Assembly (NCBI GenBank): GCA_038735125.1
Contig: JAVYNU010000006.1
Span: 1-64,000 of the forward strand
Direction: 5' to 3'
Length of the DNA: 64,000 nucleotides
Source: Ignisphaera sp.
Lineage (GTDB): Archaea; Thermoproteota; Thermoprotei_A; Sulfolobales; Ignisphaeraceae
The notes beneath the pieces were generated by a model that saw nothing but the letters and a program-made list of their open reading frames with translations, was not told the origin of the DNA and searched no databases. A program made the position numbers and the translations under genes. Positions 1 through 6,899 of this stretch are shown one piece after another (position 1 is the stretch's first letter; every line of letters begins with the position of its first letter).

Positions 1-862
1 ATATCTTTGCTTCTTCTTCAAGGTACGCTCTTATCTGCTCCGGTGCAGTTATGTTTATTTTAGCAGTAATATCTGGTTTTTCTATCTCTAGTGGTGCATC
101 AAGCAAAGCAATCTTAGCATTCTCAACCCTCCTAGGCATAGCAGGGTGGACAACCTCCTTATCCAAAACAACACCATAAACAAGCATACTGTCTAGCAAG
201 CTACCACCCCTCTTCTTCTCTATCTTAACCATATCAAGCTTTACATCATATGTTCCATCAGATCTCTTCTCTGCAACTTTGAAGGCAGCATCAATAACCA
301 TGTCCATTAGCTTGTCTATGACATCAGGTGTTGCAATATATTTGCTTGCTAGTGTTGTGTATAGAGCCTTCTTGATTTCGGCTTTTGTCTTCTCCCTATC
401 CTCAGGCTTGTCTAAATCACCAACATAAACCTTCATCCCTATCTCATCAAGAATTTCTAGCGCCTTTGATAAAGCCTTCTTATAACCTTCTATTATAGTC
501 GTTGGGTGAATGCCTTGGTCCAAGAGCTGCTCGGCTTTATCAAGCAAGGCACCTGCCAAAACAACAGCTGAGGTTGTTCCATCTCCAACCTCAGCATCAA
601 CCGCCTTTGCCGCTTCAACTAATAGCTTTGCTGCTGGATGTTGAACCTCCATTTCCTTAACTATTGTTGCACCATCATTCGTTACGGTAATGTCGCCAAA
701 GCTGTCGACAAGCATTTTATCAAGGCCTTTGGGACCCAAGCTTGTTTTTAATATTTCTGCCAGTACACGTGCTGCCATGATATTAGCTCTCAGAGCTTCT
801 CTTCCATGAGTTCTTGAAGTGCCCTCTTTCAGTATTAGTACAGGTACGCCATACATTGCCAT
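1..862 (-). CDS. thsA: Thermosome subunit (group II chaperonin), C-terminal part cut off by window edge
   Basis: ATP-dependent cytosolic chaperonin subunit that forms the double-ring thermosome and folds proteins at high temperature. The translation begins [20 protein letters not shown] and continues through the group II signature [14 protein letters not shown], then the equatorial nucleotide-binding stretch with TVTNDG and the [12 protein letters not shown] loop. About 287 codons (equatorial plus start of the intermediate/apical domains) lie in the window; the family is normally about 540-560 residues, so the rest lies left of base 1. A GGTGG Shine-Dalgarno sits 7 bases before the ATG at 862, and a TATA box lies further upstream. 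Which thermosome paralogue (alpha, beta or gamma) cannot be decided; the symbol is generic. Confidence 0.96.
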
Positions 863-902: not shown

Positions 903-911
903 CTATATAAG
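903..911 (-). promoter_or_regulatory. TATA box of the thermosome gene
   Basis: On the minus strand this reads CTTATATAG, preceded by a purine/A-rich BRE-like stretch. It is centred about 45 bases before the thermosome ATG, which predicts a transcript with a leader of roughly 20 bases that includes the GGTGG ribosome-binding site. It lies just beyond the stop of the upstream operon, so the chaperonin gene probably has its own promoter. Confidence 0.6.
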
Positions 912-936: not shown

Positions 937-1812
937 TCATCCCTTAATAATCTTCGCAAAAGCCTTGCAATACTCGCAAACAACCTCATCGCTAAAAGAT
1001 CCGCACAAGTAGCATCTGCTTGGCTTCGATATAATAAAGCTTTGCAACATTTCAATTGATTTTGAACTTGAATACATTAGCTCTGGTGATTTAGTTAATA
1101 TATTGTAAGCCTTTTTAATATATCCATCAACATTTATTTCAATTCTATTTACAGAATCATTTATTCTCAGAATCTCTTGTGATGAATAGGCTAGGTAAAG
1201 AATGTCTTGCGAAAACACATTATAAAATGGTCTTACTATTTTTATATTTTCAACGTATTTTATTGGCATACCCTCCCCAAAAACAGTTTTTGATATGAGT
1301 AAGAGACCAAGGATTAACATCATTGATATTTCGTCTCTGAATAATAGAGATGTCACATACTCCACATGATCCTCTAGTGCTATTTTTGTAGCATAAGCAT
1401 CTATATATTTAGTCATGTAGATAATTGATTTCGAAATTATGTCGACAGGGTATTTCACCTCATAGATTTCGAAGTTATTTTTAACATGTTTCTTAACCTC
1501 TTCCCCTATGATCTTGCAATCAATTAAGTTATCTGGGCACAGAATTTTGTATTCTAAATCAAAGTCTTTCATAGCATTGCTTAGCACGAAAAACGATTCC
1601 AGAGACAAAGCTATGTCATCGCCTCTTATTGCGAAAATCACCCTCTCGTTTTTTCTAAACATTTTGTAGTAATAAGATGTTTTTCGCACTTGTTTCACTA
1701 CACTATTGAATAGACAAAGTCTACACAGTTTTTCTCCTGATGTCAATCTATAGTATGTGGCCATTCTCTTGCCACATGAGGAACATAACAAATTATGGGT
1801 TTTAGTCATCAT
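937..1812 (-). CDS. TtuA/Ncs6-like protein with degenerate ATP-binding loop
   Basis: Resembles the tRNA 2-thiolation enzymes TtuA/Ncs6 in overall plan and length (291 aa). It has an N-terminal zinc finger (Cys 10, 13, 30, 33, with the family-like SGEKLCRLC), a central alpha/beta region, and a C-terminal zinc finger (Cys 267, 270, 279, 282). Where TtuA has the PP-loop SGGKDS, this protein reads AIRGDDIALS (about 61-70), so the ATP pyrophosphatase loop is not intact. The internal cysteines that hold the catalytic Fe-S cluster in TtuA are also not evident. The segment IVRPFYNVFSQDILYLAY resembles the family's KPL..I.E.EV..YA region. It is the last gene of a three-gene operon, 6 bases after the previous stop. 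I infer an RNA-binding or structural paralogue rather than an active thiolase. Confidence 0.6.
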   Translation of the reverse strand: MMTKTHNLLCSSCGKRMATYYRLTSGEKLCRLCLFNSVVKQVRKTSYYYKMFRKNERVIFAIRGDDIALSLESFFVLSNAMKDFDLEYKILCPDNLIDCKIIGEEVKKHVKNNFEIYEVKYPVDIISKSIIYMTKYIDAYATKIALEDHVEYVTSLLFRDEISMMLILGLLLISKTVFGEGMPIKYVENIKIVRPFYNVFSQDILYLAYSSQEILRINDSVNRIEINVDGYIKKAYNILTKSPELMYSSSKSIEMLQSFIISKPSRCYLCGSFSDEVVCEYCKAFAKIIKG

Positions 1813-1818
1813 TATAAT

Positions 1819-2169
1819 TCATCTTTTCATGAATTTTACTTGTATAGATCTCGACTTGAGAGCTTCTCTAATGCCTCTTTTAAGTGCTATGATATCATTT
1901 TCAATATCATTAAAAATACCTTCTTGGGTAAAAACACAGAAGCCATCTATGTAGAGATTCAACTCAATGTGATGAGCTCTCTTGTTTTCGCTACTTGTAT
2001 CATAGACTAAGGCTGTGTATATTGTTGGGTGCGATTCTTCTTCTATTATTTTTAGAAGTCTAGTGATATAATCTTTATCGGTGTTTCTAGATGTTAATGC
2101 AATTAAGATTAGCTTATGCTTTGAAATATATTTGCTAGCCTCTTCACGACTTCTTATTTCAATAACCAT
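1819..2169 (-). CDS. Small protein with thioredoxin-like layout but no CxxC
   Basis: About 116 aa from the ATG at 2169; a GTG 12 bases earlier is also possible. The order of predicted elements resembles thioredoxin: an initial helix (REEASKYISKH), strand LILIALTS, a long helix, strand IYTALVYD, then ELNLYIDGFCVFTQEG followed by a C-terminal helix. The residues where CxxC should be are RNTD, so it cannot be a classical thiol-disulfide oxidoreductase, and the fold call is tentative. The start overlaps the end of the upstream gene by 11 bases and the stop is 6 bases before the TtuA-like gene, so the three are likely co-translated. Confidence 0.45.
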   Translation of the reverse strand: MVIEIRSREEASKYISKHKLILIALTSRNTDKDYITRLLKIIEEESHPTIYTALVYDTSSENKRAHHIELNLYIDGFCVFTQEGIFNDIENDIIALKRGIREALKSRSIQVKFMKR

Positions 2170-2971
2170 CTTGTTTCTCACGTTGCTTGAGTATGTCTAA
2201 TAAAATATTTCTCTCTTCATTAGTTAGAAGAATCTCAATATCTAAAACATCCTTAGCTTCACTAGGAGGCTTTATACCTATACTACTTAAGTAAACATAG
2301 CCATAGCTTAAAGCTTTCTTCACTCCGTCCAACGACTCTTTATATGCAAATTCTGTAATCATGTTCTTGAAATTAATGGATTTCTTTAGTTCTCCTTCGG
2401 AAATAGAGGCTCCGCAAACTAGGCAGGATAGATCTGGCATCAAAGAATTGAATCCGCATCTGGGACACTGCAATGGAAGAACCGGATAACGCTTTGACAA
2501 CCATGTGTGTCTCCACAAATCCCTTAGCCTTTCAATTAAATCGGTTCTACCAAATCTCAAAGCATCATTATATAGCCTAGGAGCGTAAGCCAACACAGAA
2601 TCGCCTATATTGTTAATCACAAACTCTAGCTGAGCCTCATCTAATTGCTCTCTTAGCTCAAGAATAGCCGATGCTATCATCGGATAAACCTTATCGAGGT
2701 TTCTCCTAATCCTTCTAATGATGGTGTCTAGATCTAGAGTTGAAGACTCTCCTCTAAGCACATCAACAATTCTTGTAAACACTGTAATGTACTCATCGTT
2801 ACTTAAATTTAGAAATTCTAGGCCAATAGAAGATATAAGATCACTAACATGTCTTGAAACCCACTCTTCAGTATCCACAAAACGTTTTTTGTTTGATGCC
2901 CTCGACCTAGACTTGTATTTAGAATCTGTAGCTTCGGCGGTTTCCTCCTTAGATCGTTTTGATCTGGGCAT
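2159..2971 (-). CDS. Conserved-looking helical protein with internal zinc ribbon, function unknown
   Basis: A 270-aa protein I do not recognise. The first 30 residues are highly charged (Lys/Arg/Ser/Glu) and probably disordered. Residues about 35-155 are mostly helical. A single zinc ribbon follows (CPRCGFNSLMPDLSCLVCG, near 170-190), then another helical segment. It is the first gene of the operon that ends in the TtuA-like protein. The basic tail and zinc ribbon would suit nucleic-acid or ribosome binding, but that is inference. Confidence 0.55.
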   Translation of the reverse strand: MPRSKRSKEETAEATDSKYKSRSRASNKKRFVDTEEWVSRHVSDLISSIGLEFLNLSNDEYITVFTRIVDVLRGESSTLDLDTIIRRIRRNLDKVYPMIASAILELREQLDEAQLEFVINNIGDSVLAYAPRLYNDALRFGRTDLIERLRDLWRHTWLSKRYPVLPLQCPRCGFNSLMPDLSCLVCGASISEGELKKSINFKNMITEFAYKESLDGVKKALSYGYVYLSSIGIKPPSEAKDVLDIEILLTNEERNILLDILKQREKQDGY

Positions 2972-3318: not shown

Positions 3319-5940
3319 ATGGTAGTTGAGCAGAGAGGGTTATCAACAATTTTGGGTATACAAAGCACAGAAGCTGTAAATATAGCCGTCATTAAGAGGA
3401 GAGGCACCAAAGAGAAATTCGATATTGGTAAGCTGATGAGAAGCATCTTTATGTCTTGTAATGATATGTGTAGTGAGGAAGAAATACAGAACATCGTGAA
3501 GGAGATTATTGCTGAACTTAAGGATAGAACCGAGGTTTCCACAGATGAGATTATTGATAGGGTAGAGAGGATTCTCATCTCAAAGGGTATAGAAGATCCT
3601 AAATGGTTTGAAATAGCAAAGGTATATGAGCTTGGCAAAATTTATAAAGATGTGTATGGCAAAGGTAAACCTATTTCGATAGATCCAAGAGATATGAAAT
3701 TAAAGTTCTCCGCTGTAAAGGTACTGGCTAGTAGATACTTGCTTAAAGATCCTAACACGCTAAGATTTCTAGAAACCCCCCAGATGATGTTTAGAAGAGT
3801 TGCCAAGGCCATTGCCAAGGCTGAGTTTATCTACTGCAAGAATTCTGGGTATAGTGATGAGTATTGCAATAATGTTTCTAAATATTGGGAGGAGAAGTTT
3901 TATGATATAATGAGTGATTTAAGATTCTTGCCCAACTCACCAACATTGATGAATGCTGGTACAAGGCTTGGGATTCTTTCAGCGTGTTTTGTAATACCAG
4001 TTAGAGATGCAATTACAACCCCAGATGGTGAGGGTATATATGATGCTGTAAGGGCCCAAGCAATAATATTTCAACAGGGTGGTGGAACAGGATTTGATTT
4101 CTCAGAACTGAGACCCGAAGGAGATGTAGTGGCATCAACTGGAGGTGTGGCAAGTGGTCCTATTTCATTTATGAAAATGTTTGATGCTAATACAGATGTG
4201 ATTAAGCAAGGTGGTAAAAGAAGAGGAGCTAATATGGGTGTCCTCCATGTGTGGCACCCAGACATAGAGAAGTTTATAGATGTGAAAAGCGGAAAGCTCA
4301 AAGATGTTAACCTACAAAACTTCAATATATCTGTTGGTGCATACGACTATTTCATGGATGCTGTAATCAAAGGAAGAAAGGTCCCCCTAATAAACCCAAG
4401 AAAGACTAACCTGCGTCCAGATCTAGGCAATGATTCGAGGTATTATATAATATCTAAAGCGAGGCACTATATCCATGAGGATTGGGTTCAAGAAGAGATA
4501 ATAAAAGAATTAGAGCTCAAAGGTGGTAGTGTATGGATAGACAACTCTATTATTGTAACATTAGACGAGGCCATGACTATAGCAGAGAACACAAATGCTA
4601 TTGTAAAGTATGAGGATGCTCAAAAACTGTTTGAGAAAATTGTTAGAAATGCTTGGGATTCTGGAGACCCTGGACTTCTATTCATTGATACAATTAATAG
4701 AAGACACCCAGTGTGGTACCTTGGCAAAATAAATGCAACTAATCCTTGCGGAGAGCAACCCCTTCTTCCATGGGAAAGTTGCAACCTTGGAAGTATTGAC
4801 CTATCAAAATATGTGTACATAGATTCTGAAGGTTTGCCTAGAATTGCATGGAAGCAGCTAGAAGAAGACTTGAAGGTTATTGTAAGGTTCATGGACAACG
4901 TCATTGACGTTGCCAAATGGCCTTTACCACAACTTGAACAAGCAGCCAAAAGAACTAGAAAGATAGGCGTCGGCGTAATGGGCTGGGCATATATGTTAGT
5001 GAAGCTTGGAATACCATATGATAGTGTTGATGCCATATATCTTGCTTATTACCTTGGCGAATGGATTGAGTATAACCTTGCACTAGCTAGCATAGAGCTT
5101 GCAAAAGAGCGGGGCTCTTTCCCTGCCTATGACCCTGAAAAATATAGACCTACATGGACGACAGCAAAGCCTCTAGAGGAATTACTTAGGATATCGAATA
5201 TTGATGGTCGCCCTAGCAAGAGGGTACTGGAATTAATATCTGATAGACCCCCCATTAACTGGAGCTATGTAGAGGAGCTTAGAAAAAGAATAGGAATTAG
5301 AAATGCTACACTAACAAGCATAGCGCCAACAGGCACAATAAGTATAATAGCAGGTACATCATCAAGCATAGAGCCTCTGTTTGCAATCGCTTATGAGAGA
5401 CATGTTACTGTGGGAACATTCATTGAAATTGATAGTCTATTCCTAGAATACTTGAGAAAGTATGAACTTGACAATAGCGATTTAATAAAGCTTATTGCTG
5501 AAAGAGGTAGTGTAGCTGAAATACCATTTATACCACGAAAGCTGAGAGCAATCTTTAGAACAGCCCACGATGTTGATCCTAAGTGGCATGTTATTCATCA
5601 AGCTACATGGCAGCAGTGGGTTTGTGCTGGGGTTTCAAAGACTGTTAATATGAGATTTGATGCAACTATAGATGATGTGAGAACTGTTTATGCTCTTGCA
5701 TGGTTACTTGGATGTAAAGGAATAACGATTTACAGGGATAAGTCTAAGACTCAACAGGTCATATATGTAGGTGTGAAAATGAGCCAGTCATTGTCGCAGA
5801 AAAATCATGGCGAAATGAGTCAAAGGCCCGCAAAAGAGGGTGGGCAGCAACAGAAAAGCTATGTACTAACATCGTTAGGTAATATTAGCGAAGCTATAGA
5901 GGATATTGCGCATAGCAATTGTCAAACATGCGAGTATTAG
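3319..5940 (+). CDS. nrdJ: Adenosylcobalamin-dependent (class II) ribonucleotide reductase
   Basis: Reduces ribonucleotides to deoxyribonucleotides using a B12-generated thiyl radical; cytosolic. The 873-aa protein has an N-terminal ATP-cone ([16 protein letters not shown], about 24-40) for allosteric control, then the catalytic ten-stranded barrel. Visible signatures are LSACF and the [16 protein letters not shown] loop, [18 protein letters not shown] (radical cysteine region), and [18 protein letters not shown]. The C-terminal tail ends SNCQTCEY, the mobile redox-active cysteine pair that re-reduces the active site. No intein interrupts it and no small subunit gene is nearby, as expected for class II. 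It is monocistronic, and its stop overlaps by 4 bases the stop of the convergent gene on the other strand. Confidence 0.95.
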
Positions 5941-6899
5941 CCATAGATATTCTTTATTCTTTTATCCAGCATTTCTACAAGCTCATCGATATTAAGTCTG
6001 TTAAGCACCTCTGCATATCTTACGATCCATGAGTATCCATTGGAATTCTCGAATACACTAGGGTAGTGCCTCACAATCCATGCGTTTATTATAGCTCTTC
6101 CACGAAATGATTTAATAAGCGTATCGACTTCGTTTATGTAAGGGAATCGTGATTTTTGAAGTGCTTCAACTAGTTTTTCATATTCATCTCTTGATAGATC
6201 CTTTCTTCCAAAACTTGCTTTACCATTCCCCACATATCTCTCTCCATATCCTGGCACAACAACCTTACCATAAGCAGCCTTCACCCTCCATGATGATGAA
6301 TCCAAAGATCTCACTCCAATGATTTTTAATGCTGTATATAGTGTAGATGTTCCGCCGATTCCTAATGCATGAACATTTCCATTAAAAAGCTTAGTTAGTA
6401 TTGCTAGTGGAATCAACGGTGTTGTTCTGCTTCCTCTGCCTCCTTTTGCAAGTGAAGGTGGGACTACACCTCCATAAGCAACCATTTTAGTTCCGTATCT
6501 TTGGTATGCATCTATGGCATCGAATAGTAATGAACTCTCATAACAGTGTATAACAGGGATGATATTTTTGTAGTCAAGTTTTGTGTATAGATATTCAAAA
6601 TTTTTTATGTTCTCTCTCACAAGCTCTTTTGTTGCACAGCAAAAGCGGGATGGAGGAATATCTAAGGACATGAAGTAATCGCCCTCAATTCCTTTGTACC
6701 TATTAAAGACATCTTCAACTGATAATTTCATCCCTTTAACCATTATTTGATAACCCCCTGAATCAACCCATATAGAAGATGCTGGTGGTCTACTCCATCT
6801 CCATCTAATACTATTGATCATCAATTCTATATCAGGTATGTAATCCCATAGCCTTATCATAGTATCTGGAACCACAAAGACAATCTTTGGAATGCTCAC
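5937..6899 (-). CDS. tRNA-guanine transglycosylase-like barrel protein (no zinc site, no PUA)
   Basis: A 320-aa protein that looks like the TIM-barrel part of tRNA-guanine/archaeosine transglycosylases. VDSGGYQ (45-51) corresponds to the family's SDSGAFQ with its catalytic Asp (D46), MSLDIPPS supplies a second Asp (D80), and GIGG then SLDSSSW (198-204) sits where the nucleophilic Asp is expected (D200). It lacks the CxCxxC...H zinc cluster and has no room for a PUA domain, so it is not standard ArcTGT or TgtA2. Related barrels act on tRNA or, in the DpdA family, on DNA deazaguanine; which applies here is unresolved. It converges on nrdJ with a 4-base overlap. The start is the ATG at 6899. Confidence 0.65.

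Follow-up and report, generated by a model that had tools for sequence, protein, structure and literature searches.

Eukaryotic Ctu2 (Ncs2) is an NcsA-type paralogue that lacks the [4Fe-4S] cysteines, keeps its zinc sites and occurs beside an active paralogue. In a published model it takes the place of one NcsA in the dimer, and a role in orienting the tRNA has been proposed for it; archaea are described in the same source as using a single NcsA (PMC10067955). Archaeal KEOPS offers a precedent for a paralogue becoming part of a complex that modifies tRNA, since it contains the paralogue Pcc2 as a subunit beside Pcc1 (PMC9889334), although that family is unrelated to the protein considered here. 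In this report, we describe an archaeal protein, termed P1, that has in common with TtuA/NcsA enzymes (Ncs6, Ctu1; e.g. PDB entries 6scy, 5mkp and 5b4e) the fold, the length, both zinc fingers and the basic charge. Unlike these enzymes, it lacks the PP-loop SGGKDS and the [4Fe-4S] cysteine set, carries a replacement for the HNLDDE motif and forms a separate group in the tree.

The window analysed comprises the first 64,000 nucleotides of contig C6 in an archaeal genome from the genus Ignisphaera (1.8 Mb, 99.9% complete). The open reading frames for P3, P2 and P1 were confirmed at the coordinates originally assigned to them, all on the minus strand (Table 1). P2 is 120 amino acids long if translation begins at a GTG codon and 116 if it begins at the ATG at 2169, and its gene shares 23 nt with that of P3 (11 nt if the ATG is used) and is separated from that of P1 by 6 nt. 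Given this overlap and spacing, a single P3-P2-P1 transcript is plausible, and the TATA-like box listed in Table 1 suggests that the thermosome gene has a promoter of its own. On the far side of the ribonucleotide reductase (RNR) gene, positions 5937-6899 of the window (minus strand) encode a 320-amino-acid protein that is conserved at this site in Ignisphaera and has no match in Pfam or NCBIfam. It contains a DSGGY motif that, by eye, is reminiscent of tRNA-guanine transglycosylases.

Table 1. Features of the P3-P2-P1 locus and its flanks, in window coordinates.
Feature	Position	Strand	Basis
Thermosome subunit, cut by contig start; conserved P1 flank	1..862	-	gene order
TATA-like box CTTATATAG before thermosome gene	903..911	-	sequence
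P1: TtuA/NcsA-fold pseudo-thiolase, 291 aa	937..1812	-	AlphaFold, Foldseek, hhalign
P1 C-terminal zinc ribbon, C267-C270...C279-C282	967..1014	-	alignments
P1 residues 61-68, AIRGDDIA, at position of PP-loop SGGKDS	1609..1632	-	alignments
P1 N-terminal zinc finger, C10-C13...C30-C33	1714..1785	-	alignments
P2: thioredoxin-fold protein without CxxC	1819..2181	-	AlphaFold, Foldseek, relatives
P2 residues RNTD (SRNTD) at thioredoxin CxxC position	2077..2088	-	alignment
P3: helical protein, Ser/Arg-rich N-terminal tail, one zinc ribbon, 270 aa	2159..2971	-	alignment
P3 zinc ribbon, CPRCGFNSLMPDLSCLVC	2414..2467	-	four cysteines invariant in alignment
Ribonucleotide reductase (RNR), conserved flank on P3 side	3319..5940	+	gene order

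Single-sequence searches with P1 return weak matches, and no Pfam or NCBIfam model convincingly matches the members scanned. The NCBIfam model Pbp11 was rejected (E = 0.005, far under the model cut-off, with 34 residues covered), and no paper on Pbp11 was found. A profile built from P1 orthologues finds TtuA/NcsA structures (6scy, E = 2.6e-5), and hhalign pairs the P1 profile with an alignment of intact TtuA/NcsA proteins over the whole length (probability 99.5, E = 1.4e-22). When the AlphaFold model of P1 (pLDDT 84.9, pTM 0.86) was compared with the PDB by Foldseek, the first 17 matches were all TtuA/NcsA proteins (best E = 2e-13; TM about 0.55-0.67). The isoelectric point of 8.7-9.6 is similar to that of active TtuA/NcsA.

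In an alignment with the NcsA-like protein from the same genome, the place of SGGKDS is taken in P1 by residues 61-68, AIRGDDIA, and the PP-loop motif (SGG[KVR]D[ST]) is absent from all 61 non-redundant relatives gathered from across the class to which the window belongs, where proteins with and without the loop were sorted by this motif. Likewise, P1 has no triad equivalent to the three [4Fe-4S] cysteines, and none of the 61 relatives has a complete one; the first position is a gap in 53 and the third in 57, with cysteine never occurring at the third. An active TtuA or NcsA can therefore be rejected as the identity of P1 on both counts. The eight zinc-finger cysteines are invariant across 14 orthologues from the Ignisphaera family. 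Among the 61 class-wide relatives, each N-terminal cysteine is present in 59-61 and each C-terminal one in 43-46, the C-terminal ribbon having been lost in about a quarter. The original prediction, that P1 is a TtuA/Ncs6 relative that has kept two zinc fingers and lost its PP-loop and internal cysteines, thus agrees with fold, profiles and alignments alike. Neither of the two outcomes named in advance as contradicting it was encountered, as the model of P1 has a fold like that of TtuA, and the gene position of P1 yielded no homologue whose PP-loop is intact.

A normal TtuA had been sought elsewhere in the genome, and two proteins with intact motifs are present. One (G000:C1; SGGKDS, CTYC, ECPY) has NcsA as its best NCBIfam match (E = 4e-50) and the other (G000:C2; SGGKDS, CSIC, ECPY) has TtuA (E = 1e-77); because both fall below the strict equivalog cut-offs, we use 'NcsA-like' and 'TtuA-like' as best-match names. 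Judged by these motifs, P1 is a third, inactive paralogue beside them. In a tree built without the PP-loop label, a branch with 100/100 support sets the P1 relatives apart; this division reproduces the two sets obtained by motif sorting and fits one loss of catalysis followed by long survival. The P1 branches are too long for the tree to place the origin of the family at NcsA or at TtuA. Members are found in most families of the class, a large thermophilic group, including one (f11) whose P1 was recognized by its position beside P3 together with a profile match (L134-L136, L167, L168), and none is detectable in three (f6, f7 and f9). The two strongest matches outside the class (L172 and L173, with one genome sampled per group) are ordinary intact enzymes.

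The analyses show that P1 is homologous to TtuA/NcsA and has their fold, that its catalytic residues are gone while zinc fingers persist, that its relatives group together under selection (see below), and that intact paralogues accompany it. Beyond this, we infer tRNA binding, a partnership and a role in thiolation: P1 would be an ancient, catalytically dead TtuA/NcsA paralogue that acts as a non-catalytic tRNA-binding subunit or chaperone, most likely as a partner of NcsA or TtuA. We give this explanation roughly an even chance of being correct. Such a protein would be unable to activate uridine or to carry sulfur, yet its zinc fingers and basic surface could still bind tRNA or a similar structured RNA. 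Most likely, it would pair with NcsA or TtuA much as Ctu2/Ncs2 does with Ctu1/Ncs6, and would orient the substrate tRNA.

Ctu2 is the closest functional parallel, and it is for this reason that we propose P1 as a non-catalytic tRNA-binding partner, perhaps of NcsA/TtuA. As expected of a Ctu2-type protein, P1 shares its genome with putatively active paralogues, namely the NcsA-like and TtuA-like proteins with their intact motifs. However, Ctu2 contains two further regions (PMC10067955) that are missing from the compact P1. The Pfam CTU2 model (PF10288) does not match P1, which excludes it from that Pfam family and leaves descent from the duplication that gave rise to Ctu2 unsupported. Judging from these comparisons, the likeness is probably one of kind, produced by convergent, independent loss. 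A more ambitious proposal, that crenarchaeal tRNA 2-thiolation is carried out by a Ctu1/Ctu2-like pair whose non-catalytic subunit, P1, arose independently of the eukaryotic one, is offered only tentatively, and we consider it rather less probable than the preferred explanation. Some observations count against a Ctu2-like role. The commonest neighbours of P1, the thermosome and RNR genes, give no hint of tRNA work, and this adjacency may be plain synteny. Three families of the class have no detectable P1, and about a quarter of the relatives have dispensed with the C-terminal ribbon. In none of the loci examined does P1 adjoin ncsA or ttuA.

The AlphaFold model of P2 (pLDDT 87.8) has a thioredoxin fold, and its Foldseek matches in the PDB are mostly thioredoxins, together with spliceosomal and axonemal chains. 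The PDB matches also include the splicing factor Dib1, likewise a thioredoxin fold without CxxC. The redox CxxC of thioredoxins is missing from P2 and from all 47 of its non-redundant relatives, and 16 of these are entirely devoid of cysteine. Model and alignment therefore bear out the description of P2 as thioredoxin-like with RNTD in place of CxxC. The accompanying suggestion that P2 is related to sulfur chemistry has the fold as its sole basis. Also as predicted, the third member of the operon, P3, is a zinc-ribbon protein, with CPRC-x10-CLVC in the window and CxxC-x(8-14)-CxxC in 74 of 74 relatives. It is present in 136 of 144 genomes of the class and has a single marginal match outside it in a sample of 299 genomes from the phylum. 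Sequence searches with P3 against Pfam and the PDB yield nothing beyond weak matches to zinc ribbons, eS27 among them.

The P3-P2-P1 trio is conserved in every Ignisphaera-family genome examined, down to about 30% identity, but the co-directional operon is limited to this family, in which P1 is inverted relative to the usual order. The usual order across families is thermosome< P4> P1> P2< P3< P5< RNR>, with parts missing in many lineages, the thermosome gene adjoining P1 in most families and P1 transcribed against P2 and P3 with rare exceptions (in L184, P1 and P3 are co-directional). P1 and P3 occur without P2 in f4, f5 and f11, P2 and P3 without P1 in f6, f7 and f9, and P1 without P3 or P2 in f8, a family-by-family pattern in which P2 follows P3 rather than P1. 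The independent losses argue against an obligate three-protein complex. The conservation of the trio holds in the Ignisphaera-family genomes examined and gives way elsewhere to a convergent P1 and independent losses, and the single repurposed complex of the original prediction is not well supported. P3 and P2 would instead form a separate pair encoded beside P1, joined with it into one operon in the Ignisphaera family, and the pair and P1 may serve the same RNA or translation process without being obligate partners.

Other small proteins are encoded at these loci. P4 (about 112 amino acids, no Pfam match above the cut-off; L141:5338-5682, also L138, L144, L145, L155, L156, L165 and L186) is co-directional with P1, often overlapping or abutting it in several families, and remains beside P2 and P3 in f9, where P1 is gone; the opening 9 kb of the window yielded no match to P4. 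P5, which is acidic and about 105 amino acids long, adjoins P3 and RNR in many families (L141:2794-3123, also L138-L142, L146-L148, L154-L158 and L160) and has no Pfam match above the cut-off, with DUF2357 scoring below threshold in one member. In one branch of f2, P1 adjoins a protein of about 135 amino acids that has no Pfam match and looks Sm-like by eye (L163:5009-5431, L026, L121, L125, L126 and L132).

Gene neighbourhoods also bear on the foremost rival explanation, which takes up the repurposed complex of the original prediction. In this view P1, a pseudoenzyme that binds tRNA or rRNA, would serve translation or the assembly of ribosomes alongside P3 (and P2 where present) and would have nothing to do with thiolation. 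Where P1 has been relocated, it lies beside the genes for TiaS (tRNA-Ile2 agmatidine synthetase) and an autoantigen-p27 zinc protein (L165, L174 and L175; the latter gene is also found by P1 in L023), beside a class I W/Y-type (TrpRS-like) tRNA synthetase (L151 and L169), or beside Gar1 and TFB (L170 and L177). The TiaS, synthetase and Gar1 genes hint at tRNA or RNA work for P1, and we count these neighbours in favour of the preferred explanation. In four f2 genomes, a gene for a DRG-type TGS GTPase is located directly upstream of P3-P2 in a tight series (L145, 2289-3482; L164, L166 and L186), which hints that P3 and P2 act in translation. We treat all of these neighbours as hints only, given that the cases are few and non-independent and that other relocations, such as L149 and L182, bring P1 next to no RNA-related gene. 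A role with P3 would also accord with the persistence of P1 next to P3 or P3-P2 in many families despite changes of strand and order, with the overlapping or nearly contiguous genes of the Ignisphaera family, and with the Ser/Arg-rich tail and zinc ribbon of P3. However, P1 and P3 have been lost independently of each other (P3 in f8, and P1 in f6, f7 and f9), P1 and P2 occur together in only part of the class, and P1 is mostly convergent to its putative partners outside the Ignisphaera family. We therefore regard this explanation as possible but on balance unlikely.

A second rival would give P1 a different catalytic activity at a site rebuilt on the TtuA scaffold. Its family carries new conserved motifs, with [LF]xRDEL at the former HNLDDE position and SPELMYSS, including an E244 that is invariant in 21 aligned relatives. 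These motifs differ widely between families, however, P1 shows no evident site for a metal or a nucleotide, and the ATP site found throughout the superfamily has gone with the PP-loop, so that we judge a new activity to be improbable. Comparison of the window with its nearest relative gives dN/dS values of 0.11 for P1, 0.13 for P2 and 0.08 for P3 (0.06 for the neighbouring RNR), and P1, P2 and P3 are therefore real, constrained genes, with P1 under purifying selection. Thus, although its catalytic residues are gone, the notion that P1 is a decaying pseudogene, a chance open reading frame or an annotation artefact is refuted for practical purposes by this low dN/dS and by conservation of the trio to about 30% identity, as well as by the conserved zinc fingers, the intact frames and the occurrence of orthologues in many families.

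Among open-licence papers, we found none on a crenarchaeal TtuA paralogue or on this gene cluster; a description may already exist outside that literature, or as an arCOG without a paper. If the preferred explanation is correct and P1 partners NcsA or TtuA, the division into active and inactive subunits, described so far in eukaryotic tRNA thiolation, would also be archaeal, and split-subunit thiolation would become open to study with heat-stable proteins. A Ctu1/Ctu2-like crenarchaeal pair, if real, would overturn the rule that archaea use NcsA singly. Should there be no such partnership, P1 and P3, the latter a near-universal zinc-ribbon protein of the class that likewise has no named family, would still be strong candidates for an undescribed crenarchaeal RNA-related factor.
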